Of a DNA stretch of 64,000 nucleotides, positions 47,672 to 54,501 are shown one piece after another. This stretch comes from Pseudomonadota bacterium. GTDB taxonomy: Bacteria; Pseudomonadota; Alphaproteobacteria; Acetobacterales; Acetobacteraceae. The notes under the pieces are model-generated. The model made no database searches. It was not told the DNA's origin and saw nothing but the letters and a program-made list of their open reading frames with translations. A program made the translations under genes and the position numbers. Every line of letters begins with the position of its first letter. Positions within the stretch are counted from its first letter, which is position 1. Location of the stretch: assembly GCA_018240405.1 (NCBI GenBank), contig JAFEFW010000614.1:31795-95794 (forward strand), written 5' to 3'.

Positions 47672-50600
47672 GTGAACGAGCAGGAGACGCTGTCGGCTAC
47701 GGATGTGTCGTCCCAGGCACCAGGCTGGGGCGAGCGTGTCGCCGTCGCGCAATATCAGCTTCTCGGGCTGGTCGCAGAGCACCGTTCCTTGGCACAGTGC
47801 CTGGAGGCGGTCACCGCCGCCGTGGCCGGCCTGCATCCCGGTACGCGGGCCTGCATCCTGCTCGCCGACGAGACCCGTACCGCGTTTGCGGCTATGGTTT
47901 CGGCCAATGTGCCCCAAAGTTTCGGTGCAGGCGTGGCAAAGCCGACGATTGCGGAGCCAGCTATCGGCATCTGCGATATCGCGCTTCACCGGGGTGAGCC
48001 GATGGCCTGTGCCGATATTGCGGCCGACCCGGACTGCACGCCGGCATGGCGCGCCCTCTGCCTGGCCCACGGCATTTACGCCTGCTACGCGCAGCCGGTC
48101 ATGGGGCGGGACAACCGCGCGCTCGCATCGCTGATGCTCTGCTTCAGTGAGCCGCGCATAGCCGATGACCGCGAGCGGCAGGTTGCTGGTTTCGGTGCGC
48201 GCATAGCCGCGCTCGCCATCGAACAGGCCGCGGCGGAACGCCGCCGCGAGGTAGAGGATACGCGCCAGCAGCAGGTGTTCGAACAGGCCCCCGGCTTCAT
48301 CTGCACAATGAGCGGCCCGGACCACGTCTTCACCTTTGTGAATGCGGCGCATCGGCGCCTGTTCAACAGCGCGGACTGGATCGGCAAGCCGGCACGCGAG
48401 GCATTCCCCGAGGGCGTGGGCCAGGGATTTTTCGAACTTCTCGACAAGGTCTACGCCACCGGCGTGCGCTACACGGCGCACGCGGCGCCGATCCGCCAAC
48501 GGCCGGACCTGGATGGTGCCGAAACAATACGGCTGCTGGATTTCGTCTATGCCCCGATCGTCGAGGCCGACGGTCAGGTCAGTGGCATCTTCTGCGAAGG
48601 CCAGGACGTCACGGAGCGCGTCAGGGCCGAAGAACTCGTGCGCCGCAATAATGAAACGTTTTCCGGTTTGATTCATAACGCGCCGTTTGGCGTTTACGTC
48701 ATCGACGCCGATTTCCGCCTCGTGCACGCAAGTCAGGTCGCATTGCGCGCCTTCGGCCTGGACCCGCTCATCGGACTCGACCTTGCCGATGCCCTCCGAG
48801 CCATCTGGCAGGAGCCATTCGCCAGCGAAGCGATCGGCAGGTTCCGCCACACTCTGGCGACCGGTGAACCTTATGTCGCCACCGACACGGTCGAGCAGCG
48901 GGCAGACCGCAACCAGGTCGAAGCCTACGATTGGCGGACGGAACGGATTGTCCTGCCCGACGGACAGTTCGGTGTCGTCTGCTACTTCTACGACCTAACG
49001 GAACGGCAGCGGTTCGAAGCGGAAATCCGGCGCAGCGAGGAGCGCCTGCGGGCTTTGGTCACCGCCTCCAATTCCGGCTACCGGATGAACGCCGACTGGA
49101 CAGAAATGACCGAACTCGATGGCGCGGGTGTCCTGCGGGACACGAAAACGCCACGGCGGGACTGGCTGAACGAGTATATTCCCGAGGAAGACCAGCCGGA
49201 GGTGCTGCGCGTCATCGACGCGGCGATCCGTTCCGGCACCATGTTCGAACTGGAACACCACGTCCGGCTCGCGGATGGCAGCCTCGGCTGGACTCATTCC
49301 CGCGCCGTGCCGATCCGTAACGCGGCGGGCGAAATTGCCGAATGGTTTGGCATTGCCCGCGACGCGACGGAGCGCAAGAAGGCAGAATTAGCGCTGGCAC
49401 GTAGCGAGGAATTCAGCCGCCGGATTCTCGCCAGCTCGAACGACTGCATCAAAGTATTGGGCCTCGACGGCCGCCTGGAGTCGCTCAGCGAAGGCGGCAC
49501 GCGCCGCCTTCAAATCACCAATCTCCCTGCCCTGCTGGGCCAGCCATGGACCGACATTATCGAGGCCGAGGACCGGCAGGCGGCGCAGCGTGCGGTACTG
49601 GGTGCCGCGGGCGGGGAGACCCGCCGTATCGAAGTACGCACGCGTGATGTCAGCGGACAGCTTCTGCATTGGGACTCCATCCTGACGCCGATCATGGGAC
49701 ACGACGGCCACCCTGAAAAAGTGCTGGTCGTCTCACGGGACACCAGTGAACGGATGCAGGCCGAAGCCGAGACGCGGCGGCGGAATGAGCAACTGCAAAG
49801 GCTGGCACAGGGCGCGCTCGCGGTGGCCCGCGCCCCGACGCTGCAGGACACGCTTGAGGCTACCGCTTGGGCGGCGCGCATGGTGGTGCAAACGCACCAG
49901 GCCGTGGTCGCCCTGAAACGGGGTGACGACTGGCGGCAGGCAAGCGTGGTACCCGCGCCGGGCGGCATGTACGCCGCCTGGCGCGATGACAACATCGCGC
50001 CCGACGGATCGGGCATCGAGGCCCTGGTCTGCGAGACGAACCAGCCACTACGGCTGACCCAGGCGGAGCTGGAAGCGCACCCACGCTGGCAACGCTCCGG
50101 CACCGATACGGGTGGACGCCCGGAGCCGCGGGGATGGCTTGCCGCCCCGCTGATCGCCCGGGATGGGCACAACATCGGTTTCATCCAGCTTACGGACAAA
50201 CAGGATGGCAGCGAGTTCGACGGCACCGATGAAGCGATACTGACGCAGCTGGCGCAAATTGCGGCGGCGGCGATCGAGCAGACGCAGACCGAAGAAGCCC
50301 TGCGTCGCAGTGAACAGCGGATGCAACTTGCGCAGGCCGGGGCTCAGATCGGTGTCTGGGACTGGGATAGTGCGACCAACACGATCACCTGGACGCCGGA
50401 GATGTACGCGCTTCTCGACGTCGACCCTGACACGCCCGCCGATCGGCTCTATGCGGCCTGGTTCGACAACATGCATCCGGAAGATCGGCAGGCAGCAGCA
50501 GACCAGATTCGTGACCGGGCTCGGGATGGTGAGCCGTTCTCGATGACCTACAGGATTGTGCGGCGGGATGGACAAATCCGCTGGATCGGCTCGCGGGCGG

Positions 50601-52192
50601 CCGCGACGCTGGACGCCACTGGCCGACCGACGCGGATCACCGGCGTCAACATCGACATTACCGCCCAGCGCGCGGTCGAGGACCGGTTGCGTGGGGAGGT
50701 CGCGCAGCGGACCCGCGAGCGGGACCGGCTGTTTGAACTATCACAGGATCTGTTCGCCATCGCCGGCCTTGATGGCGCGCTGCGCGCGGTTAACCCGGCG
50801 TGGTCATCGCTGCTGGGATATACGGATGCGGAGCTTCTGGCGATGCCGGGGCTGACCTTGACACATCCGGCAGACCGCGAACGGGCTGCGCAAAAGGTCG
50901 CCAGGCTGCGCTTGGGTGAACCGCTGCGCAATAACGAAGACCGAGTGATTGCCAAGAACGGCGCGGTTCATTGGATCTCCTGGACCGCGGTGCCCGACCT
51001 GGAAGCGGGGCTGTGCTATGTGGTCGGGCGAGACGTGACGCAGGACCGCGCGCGGGAGGAGGCGTTGCGGCAATCACAGAAGATGGAGGCAGTCGGGCAC
51101 CTGACGGGCGGCATCGCACACGACTTCAACAACCTGTTGCAGGGCCTGGTCGGCAGCCTCGACCTGATCCGGCGGAAGCCGGACAATCGCGAACGCGTGC
51201 TGCAATGGGCTGAGGCCGGCATGCAGGCCGCGGAACGCGGTACCAAGCTGACCGGCCAGTTGCTGGCCTTCGCGCGGTCGCAGAAGCTGGAAACCAAACC
51301 AGTGGCGCCGGACCGGCTGATCACAGCCATGCAGGAGATGCTGGCTCGTACGCTGGGACCGACGGTCGTGGTGCAGACACACCTGACTGCGGGCCCGGCA
51401 CAGGTGCTGGCCGATGAAGTGCAGCTGGAGATGGCGCTGCTCAACCTCGCCATTAACGCGCGCGACGCGATGGACGGAACGGGCAACCTCAGCATCGCGA
51501 CAAGGACCCTTGCCATTGCCGGCGATTCGGAGCTTGCCGACGGGGACTATGTGGAGATCACGGTGTCTGACAAGGGCTCCGGCATGTCGCCCGAAGTACT
51601 GGCCCGGGTATTCGACCCGTTTTTCACTACCAAGGGTGTCGGCAAAGGTACCGGTCTGGGACTAAGCCAGGTCTACGGGTCGGTGCGGCAGGCTGGCGGC
51701 GCGGTACGGATCGACAGCGAGGTCGGGCGTGGCACGACGGTCCGGCTGCTGATGCCTTGCACTGCGCCGGGCTGCGACACCTCTGACGAGGCGATGCCGG
51801 CACCGCTGGTGGAGAACCGCGCCGCCAAAGTCGTGGTCATCGATGATGATCCCTCGGTGCGGCAGTTCCTGTCCGACTCGCTTGACCTGCTCGGCTATCA
51901 CGTGGCCGCGGCCGAGGACGGCCCAACAGGCATCACACTGATCGACGACGAGGCCCCGGACCTGGTTGTCGTTGACTTCGCAATGCCTGGCATGACCGGC
52001 GCGGAGGTCGCGCGCATCCTGCAGGCGCGGTGGCCTGCGCTGCCGATCGTGTTTGCCAGCGGCTATGCAGAGACCAATGCCATCGAGGCGGCAGCCGGCG
52101 CGGATGCGCTGCTGCTGCGCAAGCCATTCAAGCTCGACGATCTGCAGCAGACTCTGGAGGCGGCGCTCAGCCGAGCACAGAGGCGGGACTGA
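47672..52192 (+). CDS. Hybrid sensor histidine kinase/response regulator with multiple PAS and GAF domains
   Basis: A 1506-residue soluble signalling protein with no membrane helix. In order: GAF (about 25-190), four PAS (195-310, 325-445, 450-570, 575-695), GAF (700-865), two PAS (870-1000, 1010-1130), HisKA with GGIAHDFNN (His1150), HATPase (about 1245-1360, DKGSGMSPE, GKGTGLGLSQVYG) and a C-terminal receiver KVVVIDDDPSVR (phospho-Asp about 1435 in VVDFAMPG). The HDFNNLL box is that of the HWE-like/FixL-type family that phosphorylates its own receiver. GTG 47672 follows GGAGGAAAAG. No output regulator is adjacent. An imperfect hairpin (47581-47606) lies in the leader. The signal is unknown; PAS domains may bind haem, flavin or ligands. 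Confidence 0.93.
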   Translation: MNEQETLSATDVSSQAPGWGERVAVAQYQLLGLVAEHRSLAQCLEAVTAAVAGLHPGTRACILLADETRTAFAAMVSANVPQSFGAGVAKPTIAEPAIGICDIALHRGEPMACADIAADPDCTPAWRALCLAHGIYACYAQPVMGRDNRALASLMLCFSEPRIADDRERQVAGFGARIAALAIEQAAAERRREVEDTRQQQVFEQAPGFICTMSGPDHVFTFVNAAHRRLFNSADWIGKPAREAFPEGVGQGFFELLDKVYATGVRYTAHAAPIRQRPDLDGAETIRLLDFVYAPIVEADGQVSGIFCEGQDVTERVRAEELVRRNNETFSGLIHNAPFGVYVIDADFRLVHASQVALRAFGLDPLIGLDLADALRAIWQEPFASEAIGRFRHTLATGEPYVATDTVEQRADRNQVEAYDWRTERIVLPDGQFGVVCYFYDLTERQRFEAEIRRSEERLRALVTASNSGYRMNADWTEMTELDGAGVLRDTKTPRRDWLNEYIPEEDQPEVLRVIDAAIRSGTMFELEHHVRLADGSLGWTHSRAVPIRNAAGEIAEWFGIARDATERKKAELALARSEEFSRRILASSNDCIKVLGLDGRLESLSEGGTRRLQITNLPALLGQPWTDIIEAEDRQAAQRAVLGAAGGETRRIEVRTRDVSGQLLHWDSILTPIMGHDGHPEKVLVVSRDTSERMQAEAETRRRNEQLQRLAQGALAVARAPTLQDTLEATAWAARMVVQTHQAVVALKRGDDWRQASVVPAPGGMYAAWRDDNIAPDGSGIEALVCETNQPLRLTQAELEAHPRWQRSGTDTGGRPEPRGWLAAPLIARDGHNIGFIQLTDKQDGSEFDGTDEAILTQLAQIAAAAIEQTQTEEALRRSEQRMQLAQAGAQIGVWDWDSATNTITWTPEMYALLDVDPDTPADRLYAAWFDNMHPEDRQAAADQIRDRARDGEPFSMTYRIVRRDGQIRWIGSRAAATLDATGRPTRITGVNIDITAQRAVEDRLRGEVAQRTRERDRLFELSQDLFAIAGLDGALRAVNPAWSSLLGYTDAELLAMPGLTLTHPADRERAAQKVARLRLGEPLRNNEDRVIAKNGAVHWISWTAVPDLEAGLCYVVGRDVTQDRAREEALRQSQKMEAVGHLTGGIAHDFNNLLQGLVGSLDLIRRKPDNRERVLQWAEAGMQAAERGTKLTGQLLAFARSQKLETKPVAPDRLITAMQEMLARTLGPTVVVQTHLTAGPAQVLADEVQLEMALLNLAINARDAMDGTGNLSIATRTLAIAGDSELADGDYVEITVSDKGSGMSPEVLARVFDPFFTTKGVGKGTGLGLSQVYGSVRQAGGAVRIDSEVGRGTTVRLLMPCTAPGCDTSDEAMPAPLVENRAAKVVVIDDDPSVRQFLSDSLDLLGYHVAAAEDGPTGITLIDDEAPDLVVVDFAMPGMTGAEVARILQARWPALPIVFASGYAETNAIEAAAGADALLLRKPFKLDDLQQTLEAALSRAQRRD

Positions 52193-52220: not shown

Positions 52221-52946
52221 TCACTCCCAGGCCGCGTCCACCACACGGCCATCTTCGCCGATTACCAGGGTCAGCCGCCCAGGATTGCGCCCGAGATCGC
52301 TGATCCCGTCATTCGGACGGATGATGCGAGCGTTTGGTGGCAAATCCTCCTGCCGCAGCACCTGGTCCTGCGGCACACCCGCCGGCACAGCCTCGCCTTT
52401 CGCAACATACTGACGGCCAATGCACGGCTTGCACGGATCGGCCGGCACCGTGACCTCGACCACGCCAGGCAGCGATTTTAGCAGCACGGAGTTCGTTGCG
52501 CTGCGGACGCGGACCGCCTTGTAGGGATGGTCAGCCGGCAGCGGCATCAGGGCGTGGATCGGCACGTACCCGGTCGGTGCCGACGACTCCGCGGGCGGCT
52601 GCGCGACCAGCACCAGGTTCAGCACCTGATCGGACGGCGATCCGCGCGTCAGCGGCACCAGTTCGCCATGGGTCCAGCCCTCGCTTGCGACCAGTCCGGA
52701 GACAACCACCAAGTCGAATCCCGGCTTGACCTTGGTCCGCACGACCTCGACGCCGGTGATGGTCAGTACCGGAACCGGCTCCTCCTGCTCCGTCGCCGTG
52801 TCCGGCGCCGCGGACCCATGCGCAGCCGCCGCCGGCGGGGCTGGTTGCGATTGCGCCATCGCCGCCATCCCGGCAGGCCACAGCAGGGTCAGGCCGAAGC
52901 ACGCGGCAAGCAGGGGCGCAGAGTTCACGCAGCGGAGGTCTGGCAT
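52221..52946 (-). CDS. Secreted protein of the RiPP locus with C-terminal I78 inhibitor-like domain
   Basis: A 241-residue protein with a Sec signal peptide (LLAACFGLTLLWPAGMAAMA, cut before QSQP) and a Pro/Ala-rich linker. A beta-rich central region (about 55-165) follows, with VLTITGVEVVRTKVKPGFDL and GWTHGELVPL, for which I recognise no family. After DPCKPC, residues 175-241 carry LPPNARIIRP and GRLTLVIGEDGRVVDAAW, which resemble the ending of I78-type elastase inhibitors (LPxxxRVIxPG...RLNxxxDxxGxIxxV). Its start overlaps the radical SAM gene by 22 bases, so it belongs to the RiPP operon. It is not the periplasmic binding protein often found with GRRM systems. Role inferred: chaperone, peptidase inhibitor or immunity. 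Confidence 0.72.
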   Translation of the reverse strand: MPDLRCVNSAPLLAACFGLTLLWPAGMAAMAQSQPAPPAAAAHGSAAPDTATEQEEPVPVLTITGVEVVRTKVKPGFDLVVVSGLVASEGWTHGELVPLTRGSPSDQVLNLVLVAQPPAESSAPTGYVPIHALMPLPADHPYKAVRVRSATNSVLLKSLPGVVEVTVPADPCKPCIGRQYVAKGEAVPAGVPQDQVLRQEDLPPNARIIRPNDGISDLGRNPGRLTLVIGEDGRVVDAAWE

Positions 52947-54118
52947 GGCGCTCTCCCGTGGGACGCAGAGGACGGATCGTCAATCTGCTGCAAGACAGGA
53001 TCAATCCGCTCGAGAGCGTCAAGGATTAGATCGGTGGGCACCATCTGCGTCAGCTCGCAGAATCGCGTCCGGTCGCTGTCAAAGCCGCCATTTTCGGTCA
53101 GTTTGTTGACCGGTGCGCCGCCGCCACAGACGGAGAAATATTCGCAGGTGGCACGGCAACGTTCCACACCTGTTGCGATGTCGCGCCACAGACGTTGCAT
53201 GCTCCGCCCTGCCAGCATCTCCGGCAGCGTGTGTGTATGAACGTTGCCAACGATGAAGTCCGCATAGCGCGCGTCCCGCAGGCCCAGCAGTTCCGGCGAG
53301 AAGCTTGACACGTCGCCGTTGGCGGCAACGTTGACCATACCAAAGGGAACGACCTGCTCGTTGCGCATGTCGATCTCATCGGGGCGCACGATACGCGGCA
53401 GCATAGCGTCGATCTCGCGGATGAACCGGACGGTGCCGGCAGTGCGCGCCGCGCGCCAGAACCGGTCAAGGAACGCGGCGAAGCGATTGCGCAGGCCAGC
53501 TTCGGCAAACAGGGATGATTCGTGCGCGCCCTCCGATTCCTCGACGTTGAAGCAGATCTGGTCGATGCCGGCGTCCTGGAAGAAGCGCAGCATGCCGTCC
53601 GGATCGCCCAGGCTTTCCGCCGTCAGCACTGAAATGACATGGAAGTCGACGCCGTGGCTCTGCAGGAGCCGGATGCCGTCCATGGTGCGGGCGAACGTGC
53701 CCTTGCCGCCGCGGGTCAGCCGGTGGCGGTCGTGCAGCGCTGCCGGCCCGTCCAGGCTGACGCCGACACCAACGTCGTAGGTTCGGAACAGCTCGCACCA
53801 GGCCGGGCTGATCAGCATGCCGTTGGTCTGGACCGCGTGGCGCAGGCGCAGCCCGGCGGGCGCCATGCCGGCGATCCGGTCGAATGCGTCACGGTACCAC
53901 GCCACGGGCATCACCAGCGGCTCGCCGGCGTGCCAGATCACATTCAGTTCGGGCGCGCACCAGCCGGAGTCGAACACGCGTACGAACGTTGCCTCGATAG
54001 TTTCATGCGTCATGACCGAGCGGTCGTTACGATTCGGCAGATAGCAGTAGGAGCAGGCGATGTTACAGAACGGCGTTGGCTGCAGGACCAGCGTTTCAAT
54101 AACCGGCGGTTCGGGCAT
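52925..54118 (-). CDS. Radical SAM/SPASM RiPP maturase, GRRM-type
   Basis: A 397-residue radical SAM enzyme. CNIACSYC (Cys18, 22, 25) binds the SAM 4Fe-4S cluster, with GEPLVM and the SAM-domain strands DVGVGVSLDGPAALHDRHR following. The SPASM region at the end has cysteines in VERCRATCEYFSVCGGGAPVNK and RFCELTQ for auxiliary clusters. This arrangement is that of the three-residue cyclophane-forming maturases, and by its precursor it fits the GRRM (Gly-rich repeat modification) group. It would cross-link the Trp ring to the Asn side chain in W-x-N motifs of the precursor. ATG 54118 overlaps the precursor stop by one base (TAATG), so translation is coupled. Confidence 0.93.
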   Translation of the reverse strand: MPEPPVIETLVLQPTPFCNIACSYCYLPNRNDRSVMTHETIEATFVRVFDSGWCAPELNVIWHAGEPLVMPVAWYRDAFDRIAGMAPAGLRLRHAVQTNGMLISPAWCELFRTYDVGVGVSLDGPAALHDRHRLTRGGKGTFARTMDGIRLLQSHGVDFHVISVLTAESLGDPDGMLRFFQDAGIDQICFNVEESEGAHESSLFAEAGLRNRFAAFLDRFWRAARTAGTVRFIREIDAMLPRIVRPDEIDMRNEQVVPFGMVNVAANGDVSSFSPELLGLRDARYADFIVGNVHTHTLPEMLAGRSMQRLWRDIATGVERCRATCEYFSVCGGGAPVNKLTENGGFDSDRTRFCELTQMVPTDLILDALERIDPVLQQIDDPSSASHGRAPCQTSAA

Positions 54119-54501
54119 TACCAGTTGCGCCAGAAATTAGGCCAGCCGCCATTGTGCCAGTTATTCCAGCCGCCATTGCCCCAGCCGTTGCGCCAGTTGC
54201 GCCACCCGCCATTGCCCCAGCCGCCGTTGCGCCAGCCTCCATTGCCCCAAAAGCGCGGACCCCAGTTGCCCCACCAGGCCTTGTGGATGTTCGGGTCGAC
54301 CTGCAGATCAGGCGTCTGCTCGAGGCCGAGCTTGGACACGGCGCTCCGGACAGCCTGAAGGCGGGCAGCGACGCCGGATTCGGAGTCGCTTCCGGGCGGC
54401 AGGGGCGGCTTGGCGGTGGCCGCCAGCGCCGAGGACATGCCGGCCGCGCCCAGAGGCAGCAGAGCCGCAAGCACCCGGATTGTACGCTGGATCGAACTCA
54501 T
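54118..54501 (-). CDS. GrrA/OscA-like RiPP precursor peptide with eleven W-x-N motifs
   Basis: A 127-residue precursor. Residues 1-28 are a Sec signal peptide (IRVLAALLPLGAAGMSSALA). A spacer of about 45 residues (LQAVRSAVSKLGLEQTPDLQ, then VDPNIH) probably acts as recognition leader. Residues 76-127 are nearly only Trp, Gly, Asn and Arg, with NGGW repeats. By count eleven W-x-N triplets occur: four WGN, four WRN, and WNN, WHN and WPN once each. The peptide ends NFWRNW. This matches the GrrA/OscA family but with Trp in place of the Phe/Tyr common in cyanobacterial members. GGAGGCAGGAGC precedes ATG 54501. The TAA stop is followed directly by the maturase gene. Confidence 0.9.
   Translation of the reverse strand: MSSIQRTIRVLAALLPLGAAGMSSALAATAKPPLPPGSDSESGVAARLQAVRSAVSKLGLEQTPDLQVDPNIHKAWWGNWGPRFWGNGGWRNGGWGNGGWRNWRNGWGNGGWNNWHNGGWPNFWRNW
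54121..54276 (-). repeat. Tandem W-x-N/NGGW coding repeat of the precursor core
   Basis: The core is also repetitive at DNA level: on the plus strand CCATTGCCCCAGCC and GTTGCGCCAG recur several times between about 54175 and 54250. This pattern allows copy number change by slippage or recombination. Confidence 0.75.

Follow-up and report, generated by a model that had tools for sequence, protein, structure and literature searches.

Cyanobacterial GRRM systems, in which a GrrA/OscA-type precursor peptide meets a radical S-adenosylmethionine (SAM) maturase of the GrrM/OscB type, use GrrP, by the name of its family model (TIGR04262) an extracellular substrate-binding-like orphan protein. We know of no biological role of the GrrA/GrrM peptides. 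A literature search by title and abstract, the coverage of which leaves out two key triceptide papers (Nguyen 2020, Sugiyama 2022), returned nothing on such a role. According to a review (PMC11002830), OscB links C7 of Trp to the C-beta of Asn or Asp, and C4 of Phe to Asn, in both cases between residues i and i+2; its section on this enzyme (section 16) mentions no third gene. Here, we describe a related locus from a member of the Acetobacteraceae (assembly GCA_018240405.1, contig JAFEFW010000614.1), found in a stretch of 64,000 nucleotides that was analyzed as a whole and is referred to below as the window. It comprises genes for a precursor, a maturase, and a third, probably secreted protein designated here as P3. 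The precursor and the maturase are of a known kind, that of triceptide (three-residue cyclophane) biosynthesis; the new element is P3. Since P3 has no match among the NCBIfam and Pfam models up to an E value of 1, and since the same literature search, with the same two papers outside its coverage, found no paper on it, we regard the locus as a known system with a new component. We somewhat favor the view that the three genes form a cassette for an exported, multiply stapled peptide that comes with its own exported partner protein.

The initial annotation, made from the DNA letters alone, had assigned the locus to the GRRM/OscA type. In agreement with this, the precursor scores 55.7 bits against the GrrA/OscA1 model TIGR04260 (curated cut-off 31), and the best of the NCBIfam models for the maturase is the GrrM/OscB model TIGR04261 (414.5 bits, cut-off 310). 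The score against the Pfam SPASM model is 15.9 bits, below its cut-off of 21.5. Membership of the maturase in another radical SAM family, named beforehand, with the sulfatase maturases as an example, as an outcome against the assignment, could draw on the scores of the AmcB model (314.1 bits, the next-best model) and of the sulfatase-maturase model (161 bits). Both candidates were rejected because these values lie below the respective cut-offs (425 and 349.45), the TIGR04261 score exceeds its own, and a GrrA-type precursor gene adjoins; we consider a maturase of either kind scarcely credible. The three genes overlap as first described, by one base between precursor and maturase (TAATG) and by 22 bases between maturase and P3, which the open reading frames (ORFs) and their coordinates bear out. 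Judging from these overlaps, they would form one translational unit. Among relatives, a 4-base overlap between the maturase and P3 is seen for half of the P3 copies (28 of 56), counted with start codons chosen by script, which are doubtful for L057 and L058. The genome from which the window derives has a single match each for GrrM, GrrA, and P3.

The core of the precursor holds 11 W-x-N motifs, compared to a mean of 3.14 in composition-preserving shuffles, none of which reached 11 in 20,000 trials. A spacing of two between Trp and Asn stands out with 11 occurrences, versus 1, 1, 0, and 2 for the distances 1, 3, 4, and 5. From the homology to GrrA/GrrM, up to 11 Trp-Asn cyclophanes would be expected at this locus. 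Relatives were collected by scanning a genome collection with a GrrM alignment; of the 298 obtained, the 80 most similar to the GrrM of the window were studied. In 72 of these 80 loci, an ORF upstream carries four or more W/F-x-N motifs, and 71 of the 72 ORFs are mainly Trp-based; since candidate precursors were picked for at least four such motifs, their motif content is a selected property. The Trp-based core, which had been put forward as a trait setting this locus apart, did not hold up as such: besides the Trp-based cores of the relatives, OscB itself is reported to act on Trp at C7 (PMC11002830). The precursor core of one relative (L106:2034-2498) is off the usual pattern, with GPGWHNGGYGLP-type repeats, yet the maturase and P3 are present. 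Two further loci (L121:4779-5960 and L123:5053-5968) carry two different precursors in a row before a single GrrM, the first of them with a repetitive WRNGGGG-type core.

With a P3 profile built from eight sequences, we found a P3 match directly 3' of GrrM in 59 of the 80 loci (54 complete and 5 truncated where the contig ends; 18.9 to 114.1 bits), a share that does not hold for GrrM at large since the loci were chosen for their similarity to the GrrM of the window. Seven further contigs end inside GrrM or at most 246 bases after it. A maximum-likelihood tree was computed for 81 GrrM proteins. In it, the 60 rows with P3 (the 59 and the window) all fall into one clade of 70 rows with a support of 100/97, which also holds the seven cut-off contigs and three P3-less rows (L056, and L061 with L062). 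Of the 63 clade members for which the presence of P3 can be decided, 60 thus have it. The clade takes in Alphaproteobacteria, Gammaproteobacteria, and Acidobacteriota, so that P3 marks a GrrM sub-clade found in two or more phyla. The remaining 11 loci without P3 stand outside it on long branches, where their placement is unsure. Since all P3-bearing rows belong to one supported clade, P3 is most simply seen as ancestral to it and as lost about twice. In two genome samples, strong P3 matches were confined to genomes with a GrrM over cut-off. They occur in 7 of 299 genomes of the family, all seven with such a GrrM, and in a sample of 385 genomes of the class, five of which have GrrM, all three strong matches are in GrrM-positive genomes. 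Weak matches were obtained in two further genomes of the family sample and in five of the class sample, where those read are single-domain relatives. The family sample shares contigs with the 80 loci (e.g., judged by length and match, L059 is G145:C443 and L119 is G129:C129) and is not independent of them. A search for P3 on plasmids gave no match. The conservation of P3 next to GrrM shows that it is a dedicated partner of the peptide system.

The third gene had been called unusual from the start. The comparison supports and extends this claim: P3 is not GrrP, and this protein, for which there is no family model, recurs as a partner. We considered GrrP as the third gene and rejected it, as P3 has no match to TIGR04262 at E values up to 1. 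GrrP is over cut-off in none of the 299 family genomes and in none of 14 genomes of GrrM loci, searches in which no positive control came over cut-off either, and the GrrP match in the genome of the window (E = 4.4e-4) stays below cut-off. Two P3-less GrrM loci, from a Rhodospirillales and a Geminicoccaceae metagenome-assembled genome (L125:7197-9917 and L127:7115-11005, both on the plus strand), have a different, large third gene of 907 and 1297 amino acids (aa), respectively, which overlaps GrrM by about 25 bases. The two products, which are related to one another (31% across 226 residues; E = 1e-25), lack any Pfam match at E values up to 0.01 and are possibly another lineage-specific partner of the peptide system.

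For the structural analysis of P3, we used an alignment of 55 rows, made up of 53 of the 56 P3 copies, the window, and L040; the second copy of L073, the first copy of L087, and the cut-off copy of L095 are omitted. The AlphaFold model computed with these homologues has two domains and a mean predicted local distance difference test (pLDDT) score of 86.4, with 179 of 241 residues at 90 or above. It supersedes a first model from eight sequences (pLDDT 67.5), for which NigD-like proteins led the Foldseek matches and the elastase inhibitor AFUEI stood at rank 10. With the better model, AFUEI (3w0d) is the first match of Foldseek in the PDB (probability 1.00, E = 0.055, template modelling score 0.57 by target). 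Ranks 2 to 39 are, by title, CI-2, eglin c, and similar inhibitors, including those of buckwheat and bitter gourd, with a carrot peptide (7xkc) as the exception; we take these inhibitors to be potato-inhibitor-I proteins. Inhibitor_I78 (PF11720) is the sole Pfam family to which two or more of the 55 P3 members match; it was found in 18 of them with a best E value of 0.0005 in a search set to E values up to 10, from which the HMMER filters drop many weak matches. When the columns of the C-terminal domain were compared by hhalign with I78 proteins from other genomes, a probability of 97.05% (score 53.2) was reached, whereas 40 column shuffles gave at most 2.06% (score 14.6) and the N-terminal domain of P3 gave 0.2%. 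The I78 rows came from 12 of 13 loci searched (L162 gave none); two of them are doubtful or circular, L161 being weak and L146 having been found through P3 and one of four seeds, and a repeat that left both out yielded 96.7-97.1%. L146, a stand-alone I78 protein, was picked up by the P3 profile unaided. Taken together, the comparisons of fold and profile show that the predicted C-terminal domain of P3 is I78/potato-inhibitor-I-like. A profile hidden Markov model search of the PDB sequences with P3 returned only three chance-like matches (best E = 0.023, a component of RNase P), and a search for I78 in the window's own genome had no match, though no control matched either.

In a by-eye alignment of P3 with I78 proteins and CI-2, residue 218 falls on the P1 position of the inhibitory loop. 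Here, 52 of the 55 sequences have Y, I, L, F, A, M, or V, and G214, P222, and R224 are invariant. The loop itself is variable, with 41 different G214-R224 stretches among the 55 sequences. The two cysteines of mature P3 stand as a CxxC pair in 53 of 55 members, and both are missing from the remaining two; their joint retention or loss is consistent with a disulfide and an extracytoplasmic location. Weak stand-alone relatives of the N-terminal domain, all without a Pfam match, were observed in other genomes of the class (L143, L144, L145, and L147), and three of these proteins, inspected by eye, resemble secreted proteins or lipoproteins.

The gene order of single loci bears on whether P3 belongs to the peptide or to the enzyme. 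In six loci (L073, L087, L091, L088, L103, and L076), a candidate precursor follows P3. L073 and L087 have one GrrM each, together with a second precursor and then a second P3; in L091 this arrangement runs to the contig end. Since the precursor and P3 are repeated without a second maturase in these three loci, we suggest that P3 serves the peptide rather than the enzyme. In the genome G666 (L141), one GrrM is accompanied by two copies of P3. In L040, the end of a precursor is followed by P3, and the short stretch between them resembles the C-terminus of GrrM (best E = 0.001 in a tiny comparison); with modest confidence, we regard this stretch as the putative scar of a lost maturase. In L088 (7154-8248), the sole candidate precursor found lies after P3, and none was found before GrrM.

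A number of findings weigh against the view of a peptide cassette with its own exported, inhibitor-like partner. L088 and L103 have a precursor after P3 without a second P3; L121 has two precursors before GrrM without an extra P3, and L123 likewise has two but is cut off. With three of the six loci going on to a second P3, two not doing so, and one (L076) ending at the contig end after the precursor, we rejected a strict pairing of the two genes; on balance, P3 can follow a precursor without a maturase, and the pairing is not strict. Because of this, our confidence in the cassette is lowered to a cautious preference. On the side of the structure, the best Foldseek E value is only 0.055, none reaches 0.001, and 66 columns were matched; the P3 of the window has no match to the Pfam I78 model up to an E value of 10, as is the case for 37 of the 55 members, and three members rescanned at E values up to 1 had none either. 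An inhibitor-like fold does not prove inhibition, and no partner protease was identified. As to distribution, 14 of the 80 loci lack P3 despite at least 3.6 kb of downstream sequence, and 5 of the 12 GrrM genomes of the family sample are without it. No P3 adjoins the GrrM of L056, which is the closest relative (69% identity), with P3 present at another GrrM locus of the same genome, and the genomes of L061 and L062 (Methylocapsa and Methylocella) have no P3 match at all. These absences, that beside the nearest GrrM relative included, would fit an unrelated passenger gene that merely lies downstream. We hold this explanation to be highly improbable in view of the near-constant presence of P3 throughout a GrrM clade that extends over Alpha- and Gammaproteobacteria and Acidobacteriota, and of the restriction of strong P3 matches to GrrM-positive genomes in both samples.

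According to the cassette view, cytosolic GrrM would form up to 11 three-residue Trp-x-Asn cyclophanes in the core, as family membership suggests, each joining Trp C7 to the C-beta of Asn with the loss of about 2 Da. The precursor and P3 would leave the cytoplasm by the Sec route via their probable signal peptides. Outside, P3 would most likely stay with the stapled peptide, and its inhibitor-like domain might hold off a serine protease and thereby protect or assist the peptide. That P3 actually inhibits a protease is conceivable, if rather doubtful. Somewhat more tentative still is the full scheme, in which a stapled peptide is delivered with its own serine-protease inhibitor, P3, that either shields it or acts jointly with it on a target protease; if true, it would amount to a class of ribosomally synthesized and post-translationally modified peptides (RiPPs) with a built-in proteinaceous protease inhibitor.

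About as likely as a protease-inhibiting role is that P3, once outside the cytoplasm, acts purely in binding or carrying; the inhibitor-like domain would then be a peptide-binding scaffold that inhibits no protease. The recurrence of P3 beside GrrM and GrrA and the wide variation of its loop agree with this, as does the finding that the tandem P3 copies of three genomes are 95.0, 95.0, and 98.3% identical, compared to 74.3 and 75.5% for the two precursor pairs compared, which is what a generic carrier would lead one to expect. A mere scaffold, however, need not keep a hydrophobic P1-like residue and an invariant Arg224. The near-identity of the tandem copies next to diverged precursors speaks for a general partner and against an immunity specific to each peptide, with the reservation that it may reflect recent gene conversion. 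A secreted immunity protein that shields the producer from its own peptide might be expected where P3 is, next to the gene of a small exported peptide and repeated with the precursor in three loci, and a NigD-like 'immunity' protein was a weak Foldseek match of the first model (probability 0.63). With the better model, this match drops to at most 0.23 among the matches listed; extra precursors occur without an extra P3 in L103, L088, and L121, and there is no evidence of a toxic peptide. We thus judge immunity improbable. For the cassette with a peptide-serving P3, which we continue to prefer, a recurrent exported partner with a protease-inhibitor fold offers a concrete handle on the role of the GrrA/GrrM peptides.

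The coordinates of all features are collected in Table 1. Convergent to the operon, the window contains a gene for a very large hybrid sensor kinase of 1506 aa (47672-52192, plus strand), in which several PAS and GAF domains are combined with a histidine-kinase ATPase and a receiver domain. No dedicated transporter or protease recurs nearby: in a crude clustering of the ORFs within about 6 kb, groups away from the operon occur in at most 18 of 81 loci, and two larger groups, in which antisense ORFs are mingled with repetitive ones, are unreadable.

Table 1. Features of the locus, with positions in the window
Feature	Position	Strand	Basis
GrrA/OscA1-type precursor, 127 aa	54118..54501	-	TIGR04260 match
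Precursor, probable Sec signal peptide (residues 1-28, approximate)	54418..54501	-	Hydrophobic stretch ending ALA-A, read by eye
Precursor core, residues 71-127, 11 W-x-N motifs	54121..54291	-	Trp 77, 85, 90, 95, 100, 103, 107, 112, 115, 120, 124
GrrM/OscB-type radical SAM/SPASM maturase, 397 aa	52925..54118	-	TIGR04261; Pfam Radical_SAM 62.1 bits
CxxxCxxC radical SAM cluster motif, Cys18, 22, 25	54044..54067	-	Invariant in 12/12 aligned GrrM
C-terminal maturase cysteines Cys321, 325, 331, 354, SPASM-like	53057..53158	-	Invariant in 12/12 aligned GrrM
P3, putative secreted two-domain partner, 241 aa	52221..52946	-	Without a family model
P3, probable Sec signal peptide (residues 1-31, approximate)	52854..52946	-	Read from sequence and alignment
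N-terminal beta domain of P3 (residues 58-165, approximate), of unclassified fold	52452..52775	-	AlphaFold pLDDT mostly >90
P3 C-terminal domain, about residues 172-241, I78/potato-inhibitor-I-like, CxxC at 172/175	52224..52433	-	Foldseek, hhalign

Compared with the described systems, the locus is like OscA/OscB (GrrA/GrrM) in that it passes both TIGR04260 and TIGR04261 and has aromatic-x-Asn repeats; OscB acts on both Trp and Phe (PMC11002830). It is unlike OscA/OscB in its third gene, which encodes P3, a protein without a family model, and not GrrP. With GrrP, P3 has in common that it would be an extracytoplasmic companion of a GrrA/GrrM pair. The C-terminal part of P3, of about 70 residues, resembles I78 (PF11720; AFUEI, 3w0d) and potato inhibitor I (CI-2, eglin c) in its predicted fold, its profile, and the hydrophobic P1-like residue. 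It differs from these inhibitors in that its Pfam match extends to 18 of the 55 members, the window protein not being one of them, and in that the domain is fused to an N-terminal beta domain and is part of a RiPP operon.

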